From a virus, in the IMG/VR virus record IMGVR_UViG_3300021963_000524, positions 1-28,040 of that record: a DNA stretch of 28,040 nucleotides, one strand, 5' to 3'. Both the position numbers and the translations under genes were made by a program. Each line of letters opens with the position of its first letter. Within the stretch, counting starts at the first letter, position 1. The notes under the pieces are model-generated. The model worked only from the letters and a program-made list of their open reading frames with translations. It was not told the DNA's origin and did not search any database. Below are positions 3,127 through 26,091 of the stretch, in pieces.

Positions 3127-3153
3127 TAAGTATGAAATCTCTACTAGTTGACA
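3127..3153 (-). promoter_or_regulatory. Putative late promoter (TGTCA-N14-CATACTTA)
   Basis: On the minus strand TTGTCA is followed 16 bases later by TACTTA inside CATACTTA, eight bases before the ATG at 3118. The same two boxes with identical spacing occur at four other late-gene starts. The -35 box overlaps the T-tract of the terminator at 3153-3185, so one transcript ends where the next begins. Confidence 0.6.
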
Positions 3154-3185
3154 AAAGAAAGGCCGAGAAATAATTCCCGGCCTTT
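3153..3185 (-). terminator. Intrinsic terminator after the tail tube gene
   Basis: On the minus strand AAAGGCCGGGAA pairs with TTCTCGGCCTTT (one G-U pair) around a TTAT loop, followed by CTTTT. It lies between the stop of the 3215-3751 gene and the next late promoter. The T-tract is short, so some readthrough is possible. Confidence 0.8.
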
Positions 3186-5404: not shown

Positions 5405-5431
5405 TAAGTATGCTTAAAATGCGAGATGACA
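5405..5431 (-). promoter_or_regulatory. Putative late promoter (TGTCA-N14-CATACTTA)
   Basis: ATGTCA is followed 16 bases later by TACTTA within CATACTTA on the minus strand, with 32 bases between the box and the ATG at 5372. It is the only one of the five late motifs that leaves a leader of ordinary length. It would drive scaffold, capsid and tail tube genes. Confidence 0.6.
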
Positions 5432-7429: not shown

Positions 7430-7456
7430 TAAGTATGTTTTTATTACAATTGGGCA
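7430..7456 (-). promoter_or_regulatory. Putative late promoter (TTGCCC variant, N16, TACTTA)
   Basis: CATACTTA ends five bases before the ATG at 7424. Exactly 14 bases upstream of it is TGCCC, matching the TGTCA box at three of five positions. The -35 part lies in the last codons of the tape measure gene. If transcription starts at the usual distance, the mRNA begins at or next to the start codon. Confidence 0.5.
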
Positions 7457-16436: not shown

Positions 16437-16463
16437 TAAGTATGTTATTTGAATTATCTGCCG
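16437..16463 (-). promoter_or_regulatory. Putative late promoter (CCGGCA variant, N16, TACTTA)
   Basis: CATACTTA ends 14 bases before the ATG at 16422. Fourteen bases upstream of the box is CGGCA, matching the TGTCA element at three of five positions. It lies just after the terL stop and would start the long tail operon running to 7444. Confidence 0.5.
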
Positions 16464-16470
16464 GGCTTTT

Positions 16471-17709
16471 TTACCAAGCTTCTAAGCCTTGTCTGCTCCT
16501 GCCTTGTACAGCATATCTTGGACCTTCTTGTAAAGCTCCTACAGCGTAACGTAAAGCATCCATAGCGTGATTGTAGCTGTCTATTGGTTTGTCTGTTCCA
16601 GTTCGGTAAGCGTAGTTGTAGTATTCTTCTATTAGGTTCTCCGAAATCGGGTTGGCCGAGACCTGGAATGTGTGGATCTTGTCTATGCCCGATCTAATAG
16701 AGTCTGGTCCTTTTACGGCTGCGTAAATGTTCTTCCATCCTAGTCTTCTTAGGGTTTCGATAGATCTTGGATCGGCCGAATCTGCGTAGATGCTTGCTGT
16801 CTTAGGAACGCTGGCACTATCCATTAGGAGAGACAGGTCTTCTGTAGTTAACCCTTTATGGTAGATCACCTCTTCTACCCATAGCCTCTTATCCCGCTTC
16901 TTAACCTTAACCAGGGCTGTAGGGTCAGAGGCAAACCCGAAGTCTAAGCCGTACACAGTCTCTGCTTCTTGATCTGGGATGTAGTCGAAGCTCCAGTTCT
17001 TAAACACTGCACCTTCGCCAATATCTCTCCAAAGTCCTAAGATGTGGTGGGAGTAGTAAGCCGGATCGGAGTACAGAGAGTCTTCCCACTCCTTGATCTT
17101 ACTCTGGTCTAGATTGTGTTCGTTGTCTTTATAGGTTGTATGAATGTAGCCGTGGTTAGAAGTCCACTTAGGGTTCGGCTTACCATCGGGCAGATAGAAC
17201 CTTTTGTAGATCCATGACTGCTTAGATGTTGGGTTAAAGAGCAAGAAGATCCTTCTCTCCACGCCCTTGGTCCTGAAACTGTCTATTAGCTTTAGGTACT
17301 CTTCTTCGGATGGTAACTCCGTGGCCTCGTCTATTAGTAGGTGAGTTACCCTAGCCAAACCTTTACCTCGGGCTGTCATAGTGCCCTCGGCTAACTTCAT
17401 AGAGTGTGTGATGATCATGTTGCCGTTTATCTTGGAACAGATCTCATCACCTTTAACCTCGATGTAACCGGCTAAGCCCCAATCGCTTATGATATCCACT
17501 ATGTCTCGGTAGATTGAGTTGGTTAACGCACGGGAAGTATAACGGGCTATTACACCGCGGAAATAGTCTTCGCCCATTAGCTTCATAACGAAGTATGCGG
17601 CCACATTAGTTGTCTTGCCTGATGCACGACCCCCGCTAATGATCCAATAAGTCTTATCCTCGTAGAAGATAGGCGAGTAGGCGTCTAAGAACTTAAACTC
17701 CTTATTCAT
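16471..17709 (-). CDS. terL: Terminase large subunit
   Basis: A 412-residue DNA packaging motor. I choose the ATG at 17709 (MNKEFKFLDAYSPIFYEDKT), which overlaps terS by eight bases, over an upstream in-frame start lying deeper in terS. The ATPase domain has Walker A GGRASGKT (residues 26-33), Walker B LLIDEATE with D127 and E128, and a coupling motif FLLFNPTS (156-162). The nuclease domain has three acidic candidates, D256 in YGLDFGF, D310 in IYADSADP and D384 in HAMDALRY. The layout fits PBSX/Terminase_3-type large subunits. It translocates DNA into the prohead through the portal and cuts the concatemer. The portal gene is about 6 kb upstream instead of adjacent. Confidence 0.95.
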   Translation of the reverse strand: MNKEFKFLDAYSPIFYEDKTYWIISGGRASGKTTNVAAYFVMKLMGEDYFRGVIARYTSRALTNSIYRDIVDIISDWGLAGYIEVKGDEICSKINGNMIITHSMKLAEGTMTARGKGLARVTHLLIDEATELPSEEEYLKLIDSFRTKGVERRIFLLFNPTSKQSWIYKRFYLPDGKPNPKWTSNHGYIHTTYKDNEHNLDQSKIKEWEDSLYSDPAYYSHHILGLWRDIGEGAVFKNWSFDYIPDQEAETVYGLDFGFASDPTALVKVKKRDKRLWVEEVIYHKGLTTEDLSLLMDSASVPKTASIYADSADPRSIETLRRLGWKNIYAAVKGPDSIRSGIDKIHTFQVSANPISENLIEEYYNYAYRTGTDKPIDSYNHAMDALRYAVGALQEGPRYAVQGRSRQGLEAW

Positions 17710-17998
17710 TCCCCGGTTTTGTAGGTAGGATAATATTAATTGGTTGGAATGCTTCGCCGTCTTGGCCGGTGATCTCTGCCCTGCTAACTTCTGGGACAAA
17801 TCGTTGGCTAATCTTAACGTACATCTCTAGATAAGCTTTAGGATCTTTCTCCTTTAACTTATTAAGGGCTTCGTGTAGTTCTTCCTCTCTGCCTTCTAAC
17901 AGGTTAGCGAAAGCATCACGTATTCTTTTGGATACTTCATTAACTGTTCCCGGTTTTCTACCGGCGGGGTTTCCCGACTCTCCTGGTTTAAATGCCAT
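17702..17998 (-). CDS. terS: Terminase small subunit
   Basis: A 98-residue protein beginning MAFKPGESGNPAGRKPGTVN, the KPG-SGNP-GRKPG opening shared with many phage DNA-recognition proteins placed before terL. A basic helix (VSKRIRDAFANLLEGREEEL) and a second helical segment (DPKAYLEMYVKISQRFVPEV) follow, with a short tail. It overlaps terL, so the two are coupled. It probably recognises the packaging site and loads terL. It stands behind an early-type ATATATAG element, not a late motif, so terminase may be expressed from a different promoter class than the rest of the virion genes. Confidence 0.8.
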   Translation of the reverse strand: MAFKPGESGNPAGRKPGTVNEVSKRIRDAFANLLEGREEELHEALNKLKEKDPKAYLEMYVKISQRFVPEVSRAEITGQDGEAFQPINIILPTKPGNE

Positions 17999-18047: not shown

Positions 18048-18533
18048 TCAGATATTAAGGTAAGCCCATTTTCTACCAGATTTTATACCAGCTATTAGTT
18101 GCCTACTTATTCCGTACTCTCTACTAAGTGCGGCTTGGTTAACCGGTTTTTGTAACCTACGTTTTATTTCTAAGGCTTGGTCTTCAGTTAACTTACAACT
18201 TCCGTGAGTTTCCCCTTTAGCTGGTATTCTATTTTCATTCTGTTCTTCTGGGGTAGCCCATCTTAGATTCTCTATCCTATTGTCAGTCTTTATCCGATTA
18301 ATATGATCTGGTGTAGTGTTAAGGGGTTGGGGAGGACCAAAATGCTTAAGCACGAGCTGATGTATCTTAAGCATCCTCTTTTTACCATAATGACTTGTTA
18401 CGATAGAAAGATATCCCCTTCTAGACAGAACAGGTCTTATTATTATAGTTTTGCGTCTTTTGTTACTCATTACATTTCCTTGATCACTAATCTCGTAATC
18501 AGGAAACTCTTCGATTGGTTTCCATGTTTCCAT
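18048..18533 (-). CDS. HNH homing endonuclease with NUMOD4 and C-terminal helix-turn-helix
   Basis: A 161-residue protein. Residues 4-24 are a NUMOD4-type opening (WKPIEEFPDYEISDQGNVMS). Residues about 55-95 carry the HNH nuclease (KIHQLVLKHF, then TPDHINRIKTDNRIENLRW with D76, H77 and conserved Asn residues). Residues about 115-160 form a DNA-binding helix-turn-helix (LTEDQALEIKRRLQ, AALSREYGISRQLIAGIKSG). It is probably a free-standing homing endonuclease inserted between the replication-type genes and terS. The intact catalytic motif suggests activity. Its ends abut the next genes closely (one base between its ATG and the upstream stop). Confidence 0.88.
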   Translation of the reverse strand: METWKPIEEFPDYEISDQGNVMSNKRRKTIIIRPVLSRRGYLSIVTSHYGKKRMLKIHQLVLKHFGPPQPLNTTPDHINRIKTDNRIENLRWATPEEQNENRIPAKGETHGSCKLTEDQALEIKRRLQKPVNQAALSREYGISRQLIAGIKSGRKWAYLNI

Positions 18534-18835: not shown

Positions 18836-19180
18836 TTAAAAATCTACCTCGTTAAAAATATCAAAATCTTCGGGACATCCAGGAGTTTCAGATCCAACGA
18901 GTACTGCTAACATCCTAGCAGTTCCGCTACTATGGTTTATTTTAAGTATACGACGACTTCGAAGGTCAGACAATAGTTTATGAAGGGTTGGGTAGTCACA
19001 CGCTAATAGCGAGCTTAAAAACTCATCAGAAGCAAAACAACATCTATCTTGTTCTTGCCAACTCCAGATATAACTTACTAGATACTTCTCTCTTAGTGTG
19101 GTTAATCTACTGTCTTGCAGTACGTGGTCATAGACCTTTAGTATTTTGTAACTCATGGTAATAGGGTTATGGTAAATCAC
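18836..19180 (-). CDS. Winged-helix protein, replication-module type
   Basis: A 114-residue protein with a central helix-turn-helix region (CCFASDEFLSSLLACDYPTL followed by HKLLSDLRSRRILKI), typical of winged-helix domains in phage replication initiators and helix-turn-helix regulators. The N-terminus (YDHVLQDSRLTTLREKYLVS) forms two helices leading into it. The start overlaps the end of the preceding replication-type gene by 14 bases. It may act with that protein at the phage origin, or as a transcription factor. The protein at 22356-22679 has a similar fold pattern (TNEWIASKFGWTPAFVNDVI). Start choice is uncertain: MSYKILKVYD, eight residues in, is also possible. Confidence 0.6.
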   Translation of the reverse strand: MIYHNPITMSYKILKVYDHVLQDSRLTTLREKYLVSYIWSWQEQDRCCFASDEFLSSLLACDYPTLHKLLSDLRSRRILKINHSSGTARMLAVLVGSETPGCPEDFDIFNEVDF

Positions 19181-19875: not shown

Positions 19876-20427
19876 TTATTCTAATTTTTTGAAACGATCG
19901 TACCTTTTCCTGTTCATGTAGTACTCTGGAAGTTCTCCAGTTTTTATTATAAGATCGGATGCTTCCTGATAGACTGCTGCAGCTTCTTCCGCCGTCATAT
20001 AGCAGCCGAGGTACCGATTCTCCCCTTTATAACAGATTTGGCTTTTGTATCTTCTTTTGCCAATAGCTGTTTTAGTTACACCGGTGGGCAATTCCCTGTT
20101 CTTGTGAATATAAGATAGGGCTGTGTTTCGACGGTGACTTATCACCTCAAGATTATCCAATCTGTTATTGGTCTTGTCATGGTCTATATGATTGATGGTC
20201 ATTAGACCTCTTTTTGCTACGTGGCCCAAAAATATTTCTGAACATAAATGATGTACGTAACATGTTTTTCTCTTTCCGTTAACCGTGATGTTAACTGCTG
20301 GATAGTCAGAAATTAAAAAGGGTTTAAGTACATTTCTAGTCTTTAGGTTTTTAACCTCCCCGAATTCGTTAATGGCGTAATCGCTGCCTTCTAACCGTAC
20401 GAATTTCTTGCTTAGTTTTTGCTTCAT
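19876..20427 (-). CDS. HNH homing endonuclease with AP2 DNA-binding domain
   Basis: A 183-residue protein. Residues about 10-30 resemble a NUMOD4-like opening (SDYAINEFGEVKNLKT). Residues 57-100 are the HNH nuclease (YVHHLCSEIFLGH, then INHIDHDKTNNRLDNLEVIS with H80, D82 and conserved Asn). Residues about 115-157 are an AP2 domain (TGVTKTAIGKRRYKSQICYK, RYLGCYMTAEEAAAVYQEA). It is a free-standing homing endonuclease with its own early-type promoter element and a strong terminator upstream, so it forms a separate unit. Its start is shared in sequence with the small gene downstream (MKQKLSK), which may mark the insertion point. Confidence 0.9.
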   Translation of the reverse strand: MKQKLSKKFVRLEGSDYAINEFGEVKNLKTRNVLKPFLISDYPAVNITVNGKRKTCYVHHLCSEIFLGHVAKRGLMTINHIDHDKTNNRLDNLEVISHRRNTALSYIHKNRELPTGVTKTAIGKRRYKSQICYKGENRYLGCYMTAEEAAAVYQEASDLIIKTGELPEYYMNRKRYDRFKKLE

Positions 20428-20572: not shown

Positions 20573-21055
20573 TTATAGTGCAGCTTCTTTGGATTGTTTC
20601 ACATTATAATTCGGACTAACCTTTTGCCAGGCTTTAATATACCTTTTAGTTAACCCCAGATCTTTAAAGTACTTAACCATATCTCTTCCATCCCCATAGA
20701 ATTTTTCCCTTATCAGCATCTGTTCGACTGTGTTGTCTATGAATTTTCTTTCTCTTTCTTGTCTGGCCGGGTCATCCACACACATAATTTCTAAATTGTC
20801 GAAAGATGTGTCGTACGGATTCATGTTAAGGAATCTAATATTAGTGTAAGCCGGTAGTTCTTCTTCGGTCCAGCATTCCCAAACAAGATGTTGACTTGAT
20901 TTCTTAGTGAAGTGATCTACCATGTCGTCTTCACTCTTGCATCTAACAACTCCACAACGGCTTGCCTCTATCTCAGGAATTGTAGGGTGCGTCTTAAACT
21001 GCACAGGCTCGGTTGACACTGGGTAAACACAATGGAACAGAGACTCGTATACCAC
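20573..21055 (-). CDS. Degenerate HNH-endonuclease relative, probably catalytically inactive
   Basis: A 160-residue protein. Residues about 25-40 (PTIPEIEASRCGVVRC) look like the opening of HNH/NUMOD4 proteins. Residues 55-62 (QHLVWECW) correspond to the H-LVAEAF motif, and residues 73-91 (IRFLNMNPYDTSFDNLEIM) correspond to the NHIDGNKTNN-ENLEW motif. The catalytic His and Asp of that motif are replaced (by residues such as Phe and Leu). A helical C-terminus follows (FIDNTVEQMLIREKFYGDGR, KDLGLTKRYIKAWQKV), perhaps a DNA-binding part. It is the last gene of the early operon. It may be a domesticated DNA-binding protein; the relationship rests on short motifs. Confidence 0.5.
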   Translation of the reverse strand: MVYESLFHCVYPVSTEPVQFKTHPTIPEIEASRCGVVRCKSEDDMVDHFTKKSSQHLVWECWTEEELPAYTNIRFLNMNPYDTSFDNLEIMCVDDPARQERERKFIDNTVEQMLIREKFYGDGRDMVKYFKDLGLTKRYIKAWQKVSPNYNVKQSKEAAL

Positions 21056-21669: not shown

Positions 21670-21867
21670 TTATTTTGTTTGTGTTAAGGTTAACAGTGGT
21701 GGTTGGTAAAAAGATTCAGTAGCGGGCTCTGTATGAGCATCTAGCTTAGCAAATTCGTTCTCTAGTTCTTTTACAAGCTTTTGAACTTGGTATCTTCTAG
21801 CTGCAATCTCTTTTGTTCTGATTGCTGCTTTCTTTTTTTGGTCTTTTCTATGTCTTGATTTTGGCAT
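21670..21867 (-). CDS. Small highly basic protein
   Basis: A 65-residue protein. Residues 2-34 are strongly basic (KSRHRKDQKKKAAIRTKEIA and more), and a helical KLVKELENEFAKLDAHTEPA region and a Pro/Gln/Thr-rich tail follow. No family recognised; nucleic-acid binding is suggested by composition only. Its start overlaps the stop of the sigma-like gene by one base (TAATG), so it is coupled to the sigma factor in the early operon. Confidence 0.6.
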   Translation of the reverse strand: MPKSRHRKDQKKKAAIRTKEIAARRYQVQKLVKELENEFAKLDAHTEPATESFYQPPLLTLTQTK

Positions 21868-22352
21868 TAGATATTTTGTTTAATGTGTTTTCGAATTCGG
21901 TTTATAGACAAAGATATAGAAGTGCGAGGGATTCCAGTGGCACGAGCCAAAGAGGATATTGTATGATTCTCAGTATAAAAAATCTCAAATAGTTTTTTAT
22001 CGAACCAAGAAAGTTTATCAAGTTCTCTTTTAATGTTATCGGCGATTTCGGTTGTTGGGTCATATTCATCTTCAATATCCTCAAACTTTTCTATATCGAA
22101 ATCAGCTGAGGGTTTCTTATAAGTATGATAAAAGGGGGATGTTACCGACTTCCAGCTGTTAAGCATAATACGCACACAGTAGAATCTACCACCTCCTGAA
22201 TCGATTATAGTATCGACCTCTTTCTTTCTTAAGAACTCATCTATCGTATAATGTAACAGTTCTTCCGACAGTTCGTGATTACCACTAATCCTCTCCGCTG
22301 CTTCTTTAAGAGGAATGTAGTTATCGTTCATGAACTGCTCTACCAAATTCAA
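21867..22352 (-). CDS. Phage sigma-70-like (ECF-type) RNA polymerase sigma factor
   Basis: A 161-residue protein with two sigma-type regions. Residues about 10-85 match a reduced region 2 (LKEAAERISGNHELSEELLH, RFYCVRIMLNSWKSVTSPFY), a pattern seen in phage sigma factors of Bacteroidota phages. Residues 107-160 match region 4, with a helix-turn-helix at 129-155 (SSLARATGIPRTSISLSINR). An acidic linker separates them. It should bind host RNA polymerase core and recruit it to phage promoters; the CATACTTA late motif is the obvious candidate target. It is in the early operon behind an ATATATAG element, fitting an early-to-late switch. Family call is from motifs. Confidence 0.75.
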   Translation of the reverse strand: MNLVEQFMNDNYIPLKEAAERISGNHELSEELLHYTIDEFLRKKEVDTIIDSGGGRFYCVRIMLNSWKSVTSPFYHTYKKPSADFDIEKFEDIEDEYDPTTEIADNIKRELDKLSWFDKKLFEIFYTENHTISSLARATGIPRTSISLSINRIRKHIKQNI

Positions 22353-22355
22353 ATT

Positions 22356-22679
22356 TTATGGGTTAATTTCTGTTGCTTCCACCGTCAGAATATCCTCGCA
22401 AGGATTAGCTCTACCAGGTATGTAAAAGCTTAAGTTTCTAGTGCCGTTCCATTGTTTGCTCATAACAAGTAATTTTCTGGTAGCCAGTAGATTTATTACG
22501 TCATTAACAAAAGCAGGGGTCCAGCCAAACTTAGATGCTATCCATTCATTAGTAAGTGTACAACACTCGTCTCTTAAAGTAAATGAAAGGACTAGATTTA
22601 CGATAATCTTTTCTGGATAGCCCAGATTTGGATCATCCCAAATAAAGGGATCAATTCTTAGTAAAATAGGTTCTTCCAT
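22356..22679 (-). CDS. Winged-helix DNA-binding protein
   Basis: A 107-residue protein with a helix-turn-helix core at about residues 24-75: PEKIIVNLVLSFTLRDECC, TNEWIASKFGWTPAFVNDVI, then NLLATRKLLVMSKQW. This is the pattern of winged-helix replication or regulatory proteins in phages. The N-terminal 20 residues (IDPFIWDDPNLGYPEK) are typical of this type. It is the second gene of the early operon, just upstream of the sigma-like gene, with which it may control phage transcription. A replication role is equally possible. Confidence 0.62.
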   Translation of the reverse strand: MEEPILLRIDPFIWDDPNLGYPEKIIVNLVLSFTLRDECCTLTNEWIASKFGWTPAFVNDVINLLATRKLLVMSKQWNGTRNLSFYIPGRANPCEDILTVEATEINP

Positions 22680-22978: not shown

Positions 22979-23008
22979 AAAAAATCCCCAAGATATTATC
23001 TCGGGGAT
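22979..23008 (-). terminator. Intrinsic terminator of the portal operon
   Basis: On the minus strand ATCCCCGAGATA pairs with TATCTTGGGGAT with one G-U pair and a small loop, followed by TTTTTT. It lies between the holin-like gene and the early promoter element, separating late portal transcription from the early operon. Confidence 0.9.
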
Positions 23009-23028
23009 CGGTAACAAAATCTTATAAT

Positions 23029-25139: not shown

Positions 25140-25166
25140 TAAGTATGAAAAGATGTGAAAGTGACA
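25140..25166 (-). promoter_or_regulatory. Putative late promoter (TGTCA-N14-CATACTTA)
   Basis: ATGTCA, then 16 bases, then TACTTA within CATACTTA on the minus strand. The box ends six bases before the portal ATG at 25133, so a transcript starting at the usual distance would begin at the start codon. It shares a 73-base intergenic region with the divergent glycosyltransferase gene. Confidence 0.6.
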
Positions 25167-25191
25167 TTGAAAAATTTACGCCTTTTTGGAC

Positions 25192-25197
25192 TATAAT
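25192..25197 (+). promoter_or_regulatory. TATAAT box upstream of the glycosyltransferase gene
   Basis: A perfect TATAAT, ten bases before the ATG at 25207. A TTGAAA occurs upstream, but the 19-base spacing is poor. The CATACTTA element is absent on this strand, so this gene belongs to a different class from the portal beside it. The short distance would give a nearly leaderless mRNA. Confidence 0.35.
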
Positions 25198-25206
25198 ATA
25201 TACGAT

Positions 25207-26091
25207 ATGGAAGAAAGAAAAAACTTAGTATTACACATTAACGGCGGAATCGGTAAGTGTATCATGGCCACGGCAGTTATACGCTCGTATAAGCAAAATT
25301 ATCCAGGTTCTAGAGTGGTTGTAGTGTCAGGATATCCTGAAGTATTTATAAATAATTCAGACATTTACAAAAATTTCTCTTTTAATACTCCATATCTATG
25401 GCAGGATTACTACGGAAATCCTGAATGGGAGGTGTCTGCGCACGACCCTTATATGGAAAATGTCTGGATCAAGAACGAAAAAGAACACCTTATAGACATT
25501 TGGTGTGAGCTTTTAGGTGTTCCTTCTGTGCAAAAAACTCCATTATTATTCTTTTCGGGTCCGGAAGTAGAGGAATTAATAGCAATGATTCAGACAGAAA
25601 AACCTTTAGTAATCGTACAATCTACTGGAGGTGCTAACCCTGCTGCTAGATCTTGGACTAGAAATCCTCCGCAAAACGAATTCGATGAATTTTTAAATAA
25701 GTTTAAAGACACACATTTTATTGTGCACTTATGTCTATCAGAAACACCAAAACTTACTAATATTCATCAAAGACTAGAAACGTTAAGTAGACGTCAAGCT
25801 ATGTGTCTTATACACTATTGTGCAGAGTTTGTAGGAATAGATTCTTTTGGACAACATGCTAGAGCAGCTAATCTTAGTGCAGGATCTACAACTATTTTCT
25901 TTCCTTTAGCTGAATCTGTAGAGAGATTAGGTTATGATTTAGAGAATTTTAAGAATATAGTACCGGTTCCTGAAGTTCAGGAAATTATAAAATCTAGTCA
26001 GGATTATTATGCAACAGTTTTTAAATACGGTATAGAAGACGTTTCAGAAAATTGTCCAGTTCCTGTTGGTAGTAGATGGTTTAATTTTTAA
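25207..26091 (+). CDS. GT9-like glycosyltransferase
   Basis: A 294-residue protein, the only gene on the plus strand. The ATG at 25207 (MEERKNLVLHINGGIGKCIM) is preferred over an upstream TTG that would place a TATAAT inside the gene. The N-terminal pattern NGGIGKCIMATAVIRSYKQN with YPGSRVVVVSGYPEVFINNS matches the GT-B fold of glycosyltransferase family 9 (heptosyltransferase type). The C-terminal HYCAEFVGIDSFGQHARAAN matches the second conserved motif (G-DS-H-A). It transfers a sugar from a nucleotide donor; substrate unknown. Possible targets are virion fibres or host surface glycans. It meets the adhesin gene tail to tail, overlapping it by four bases. Confidence 0.75.
   Translation: MEERKNLVLHINGGIGKCIMATAVIRSYKQNYPGSRVVVVSGYPEVFINNSDIYKNFSFNTPYLWQDYYGNPEWEVSAHDPYMENVWIKNEKEHLIDIWCELLGVPSVQKTPLLFFSGPEVEELIAMIQTEKPLVIVQSTGGANPAARSWTRNPPQNEFDEFLNKFKDTHFIVHLCLSETPKLTNIHQRLETLSRRQAMCLIHYCAEFVGIDSFGQHARAANLSAGSTTIFFPLAESVERLGYDLENFKNIVPVPEVQEIIKSSQDYYATVFKYGIEDVSENCPVPVGSRWFNF

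Follow-up and report, generated by a model that had tools for sequence, protein, structure and literature searches.

The window analysed here, the whole stretch of 28,040 bases of a virus record, carries the gene set of a tailed phage, nearly all of it on the minus strand. The set includes a portal gene and head genes, small genes in a central block, the terminase, tail genes, and the genes of a Peptidase_S78_2 protein, of fibres and, identified by their position, of a 198-aa putative scaffold and the capsid. Among the cultured phages listed, those with the nearest large terminase subunit (TerL) are phages of Nonlabens and Riemerella (34–36% identity), which makes a member of the Bacteroidetes the probable host of the window phage and of its family of small, uncultured phages. 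The central block contains three HNH endonuclease-like genes (18048-18533, 19876-20427 and 20573-21055), one of them with NUMOD4, and a relative of the third is present in several other contigs. Residues 141–261 of the collagen-like fibre protein (1112-2431) are 91% identical to a stretch of one relative, G015, whereas the other genes of G015 are about 30–52% identical to those of the window, indicating a recent exchange of the fibre segment. A 301-aa ORF on the plus strand (25186-26091), for which no Pfam match was found, runs opposite to nearly all genes and diverges from the predicted portal promoter.

The sigma factor gene and its surroundings

The gene at 21867..22352 on the minus strand encodes a protein of 161 residues with region 2 at about residues 4–80, a linker at about residues 82–98 and region 4 at about residues 105–161. 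Region 2- and region 4-like motifs had been noticed in this ORF by the first-pass annotation, and both are present: the NCBIfam sigma70-ECF model TIGR02937 matched residues 4–160 over profile positions 3–164 of 165 (E 8e-7), and a PHROG phage sigma family spans residues 7–160. The Bacteroidetes ECF model TIGR02985 also matched (E 3.2e-4). The TIGR02937 score of the single window protein, 28.8 bits, is under the curated cut-off of 42.9, and the Pfam region 4 model matched this protein alone only weakly (E 0.016, 15.3 bits vs. a cut-off of 25.7); all 31 aligned sigma relatives matched TIGR02937, the best with an E of 1.2e-13. Structure prediction, which the same annotation had proposed as a check, returned a sigma fold. 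Two AlphaFold models (mean pLDDT 77 and 81) showed two helical domains with a low-confidence linker between them, and sigma factors ranked top when the PDB was searched with either model by Foldseek (best full-length E 1.8e-3, probability 1.00). Region 4 superposed on PDB sigma factors at a TMt of 0.74–0.84; the full-length TM-scores were low (about 0.35), which we attribute to the low confidence of the linker, leaving the orientation of the domains undefined. A sequence-profile search of the PDB gave no credible match. As the curated cut-offs were missed but a full-length match and the fold are present, the protein belongs to the sigma superfamily, distantly but clearly. It comprises regions 2 and 4 and lacks regions 1.1 and 3, and, judged by its profile matches and predicted fold, it is an ECF-type sigma factor.

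Full-length relatives of this protein, 46–78% identical to it, were found in viral contigs, and none were found by a search of bacterial genomes. The gene has a TTG start in the window (22350-22352); across the family, 20 of 25 members appear to start with TTG and 4 with GTG. Such a rare start codon could keep the expression of the factor low. Directly upstream lies the gene of a winged-helix-like 107-aa protein (22356-22679), which, like a winged-helix-like 114-aa protein encoded at 18836-19180, matches the same loci in many relatives; the two are possibly paralogous regulators. No anti-sigma gene was recognised near the sigma gene.

The early-type element that had been proposed to precede the sigma operon could not be confirmed. 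Instead, a strong terminator-like hairpin on the minus strand (22983..23009), with a 12-pair stem followed by a T run, separates the portal unit from the sigma-containing unit. No late motif was found before the latter, and the Bacteroidetes consensus TTTG/TAnnTTTG was neither enriched in these genomes nor present before the sigma operon. A scan for sigma-70 promoters of the E. coli type gave no excess either.

A bipartite motif before virion genes and inside the sigma gene

The alignment of 41 sites defined the late motif as TGTCA, a 14-base gap and CATACTTA. In the 21 sigma-carrying contigs (485 kb), its relaxed form, GNCA-N14-(C/T)ATA(C/T)TTA, occurred 75 times in the sense and 0 times in the antisense orientation, although some of these contigs are close relatives and the 75 sites are thus not independent events. 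The spacing was 14 in 74 sense sites, compared with 4 sites for all other spacings of 8–22. These strand and spacing biases rule out chance. The octamer alone, with one mismatch allowed, was not enriched in the window (45 occurrences vs. 36.6 expected), so the promoter claim depends on the bipartite form. A shorter pattern, GTCA-N14-CATATTTA-NNN-TAAA, was tried on viral contigs and rejected, as its matches were mostly chance ones outside the family.

A profile scan of the window returned only six high-scoring bipartite sites, all on the coding strand. The bipartite late motif of the first-pass annotation stands at five of them, before gene starts and in a stricter form than had been noted; the sixth (octamer 22127-22120) had gone unreported. 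The five are predicted late promoters on the minus strand. The one of the portal gene (25140..25165) reads GTCA-N14-CATACTTA, its octamer (25147-25140) ends 6 nt from the ATG, and orthologous sites are present in 18 contigs. The 156-aa gene that is the first after TerL is preceded by GGCA-N14-CATACTTA (16437..16462, octamer 16444-16437, 14 nt to the ATG; orthologous sites in 10 contigs), and the Peptidase_S78_2 gene by GCCC-N14-CATACTTA (7430..7455, octamer 7437-7430, 5 nt to the ATG), with orthologous sites in other contigs and the motif at the protease start in 7. The remaining two read GTCA-N14-CATACTTA and have orthologous sites in 14 contigs each: one precedes the genes of the 198-aa putative scaffold and the capsid (5405..5430, octamer 5412-5405, 32 nt to the ATG), the other the 224-aa gene (3127..3152, octamer 3134-3127, 8 nt to the ATG). 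Large fibre-like ORFs also carry the motif at orthologous starts. A strong terminator hairpin (3158-3185) lies a few bases 5' of the −35 element of the 224-aa gene, terminator and predicted promoter standing back to back.

While the gap between the −35 element and the octamer is fixed at 14, the distance from the octamer to the ATG ranges from 3 to 45 nt, and is 5–8 nt in 42 of the 71 sites that lie outside the sigma gene and have a start codon behind them. Sigma factors generally initiate transcription about 6–7 bases after the −10 element. With a gap of 5–8 nt, the corresponding mRNAs would be leaderless or nearly so, and many late mRNAs may therefore begin at the ATG or within a few bases of it.

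The sixth site lies inside the sigma gene itself (22120..22145, minus strand; GTAA-N14-CATACTTA, profile score 22.5), at codon 76 and in frame 0 in the group of the window. In the group L038-L045, it sits at codon 88 and is read in a different frame, with different amino acids encoded. Most members carry this nested site; it is missing from L026, L027, L030, L033, L013 and L034. When the sigma genes were recoded randomly with synonymous codons, the observed score of the nested site was reached with a p of 0.025 in the window, and with one not above 0.005 in 11 of 25 homologous genes, of which some are near-duplicates. Selection on the nested DNA element, apparently through codon choice in two frames, is thus likely. 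In the clade L038-L045, an out-of-frame ORF of 61–70 aa begins 7 nt past the nested site; it is poorly conserved and was not accepted as a gene.

The genes of the small and large terminase subunits (16471..17998, minus strand) lie downstream of the sigma gene in the window, as they do in most relatives, and are not directly preceded by a late motif of their own. Since the profile scan of the window detected no late site before them other than the nested one, the supply of late terminase mRNA is its most economical role, and it is a candidate promoter for late terminase transcripts. A fuller picture, in which the sigma factor starts transcription inside its own gene for the terminase, the other late promoters give leaderless mRNAs, and codon choice maintains the nested site in two frames, is offered tentatively, at somewhat below an even chance. 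If it is true, the whole late programme is run by one protein of 161 residues.

Probable pairing of the factor with the motif

Co-occurrence of factor and motif in related phages had been named by the first-pass annotation as a check, and it holds. When 2.9 million viral contigs were scanned blind with the stringent motif, 11 contigs matched, all of which belong to the window phage family by their virion genes. No sigma gene was detected in 6 of these 11 contigs, which are fragments covering virion genes only. Conversely, the sigma gene is present in 11 of the 12 contigs found through TerL, and the twelfth begins at TerL; an apparent absence of the factor from some TerL relatives was rejected once a profile search had found the gene. 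Where the sequence of a relative covers both regions, factor and motif are found together, and no relative with the motif and demonstrably without the factor was found among the contigs examined. Contigs with more distant sigma factors (543 kb) contained 0 and 1 motif sites, and a de novo motif search in the distant sigma groups L047-L098 returned mostly A-rich words. In 84,980 bacterial and archaeal genomes, the stringent motif had 7 scattered matches, none of them in Bacteroidetes.

The clade of G021, whose sigma factor is 46% identical to that of the window, lacks GNCA-N14-YATAYTTA. Its orthologous starts carry TTCA-N14-TATATCTA, GTCA-N14-TATATCTA and GTCA-N14-AATATCTC, and a relative of G021, L016, has TTCA-N14-AATATCTA. 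The −10 element of this clade is thus WATATCTA, i.e. (A/T)ATATCTA, while the CA core of the −35 element is retained. Compared with the window protein, region 2 of the G021 sigma factor is 42% identical, the most diverged of those compared, region 4 is 60% identical, and the recognition helix 86%. The −10 element shifts with region 2 and the −35 core stays with region 4, as direct recognition predicts. In this one clade, and at few sites, the covariation supports the pairing of factor and motif but is not conclusive.

The link that the first-pass annotation drew between this factor and this motif is therefore well supported by comparative evidence; we infer that the window factor reads GNCA-N14-YATAYTTA directly, and likewise the timing of the switch. 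The factor would bind host core RNA polymerase and direct it to dedicated late promoters, consisting of a −35 TGTCA, a 14-nt gap and a −10 YATAYTTA, immediately upstream of virion genes, those of the portal, protease and scaffold among them. It would be made early and the virion genes late, and its nested copy of the motif would supply late transcripts for the downstream terminase genes. We consider such a retargeting of host core polymerase by the phage factor to be very probable. Against it weigh a sigma score below the curated cut-offs, a motif that is not canonical for ECF factors, and the shared ancestry of the sites.

The motif might instead be read by an alternative sigma factor of the host, with the phage factor acting elsewhere, e.g. 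on host genes. Bacteroidetes have many ECF sigma factors, and TIGR02985 is itself a model of them; however, the absence of the stringent motif from the Bacteroidetes genomes searched, the confinement of the motif to phages carrying a sigma factor of the window type, and its shift along with region 2 make this improbable. Slightly less probable still is that the motif is bound by another phage protein acting as an activator, either the winged-helix-like 107-aa one or a 67-aa one encoded near the sigma gene. The genes of both adjoin the sigma gene and recur in many relatives, but tblastn found neither the 107-aa protein nor its 114-aa cousin in G021 or G024, and no 67-aa protein in G021, and the geometry of the motif, with its single fixed spacing, is that of a sigma −35/−10 pair. 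Least probable of all, and barely credible, is that the octamer is an RNA-level signal of translation or processing, as its frequent position 5–8 nt before the ATG and the little use of Shine-Dalgarno sequences in Bacteroidetes might suggest, since its distance to the ATG varies and that to GTCA is fixed, which argues against a translation signal, and in the window the nested copy is not closely followed by a start codon.

Comparison with known sigma factors and their promoters

The reading in which the phage sigma factor recognises the late motif places this factor beside the ECF (group 4) factors (TIGR02937; TIGR02985 in Bacteroidetes), with which it shares the presence of regions 2 and 4 only, a length of about 160 residues, and the fold. 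It differs from them in being phage-encoded and in scoring below the curated cut-offs. Canonical ECF promoters have AAC at −35 and CGT at −10; the predicted promoters of the window have GTCA (TGTCA in the aligned consensus) and YATAYTTA instead.

A parallel that is open to bench testing is offered by the cultured Nonlabens phage P12024L, which, together with P12024S (Inhavirus), comes closest to the window in its TerL (36% identity) of the cultured phages listed. P12024L has a gene annotated as 'Sigma-70 region 2' (P12024L_35) three genes before the terminase. A bipartite motif of its own, AAAACAAA...CGTTAATA, lies 3–4 nt before six of its gene starts (near 276, 2657, 19336, 22016, 23256 and 24857 in contig L197), with 6 sense and 0 antisense sites; shuffles gave an expectation of about 0.03, which is optimistic, as the pattern was chosen after viewing the upstream sequences. 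Apart from membership of the superfamily, the P12024L factor shows no detectable relation to the window family, and its promoter resembles the canonical ECF AAC/CGTT elements, unlike the motif of the window. This suggests that a phage ECF sigma factor with its own late promoter may be a recurring arrangement. In the literature searched, no such pair of factor and promoter in Bacteroidetes phages, with a sharp promoter set and a nested copy, is described. A defined minimal sigma factor, a sharp consensus and natural specificity variants make promoter recognition by phage ECF factors directly testable, and the pair could be put to use for orthogonal expression in Bacteroidetes.

The late factors of T4 and SPO1 use accessory proteins, whereas the window factor is a single ECF-type protein that would recognise both the −10 and the −35 element, and no equivalent of an accessory protein was identified. 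The type of T4 gp55, without region 4 and with promoters consisting of a −10 element only, does not fit the window factor, which has region 4 and a conserved −35-like element. What SPO1 gp34 and T4 gp55, both phage late sigma factors (PMC9429907), have in common with the factor proposed here is the service of dedicated late promoters, and the window family does have a dedicated motif before its virion genes. Late sigma factors of phages are thus known from SPO1 and T4; what would be new here is a single factor of the ECF type with a sharp set of promoters and a copy nested in its own gene.
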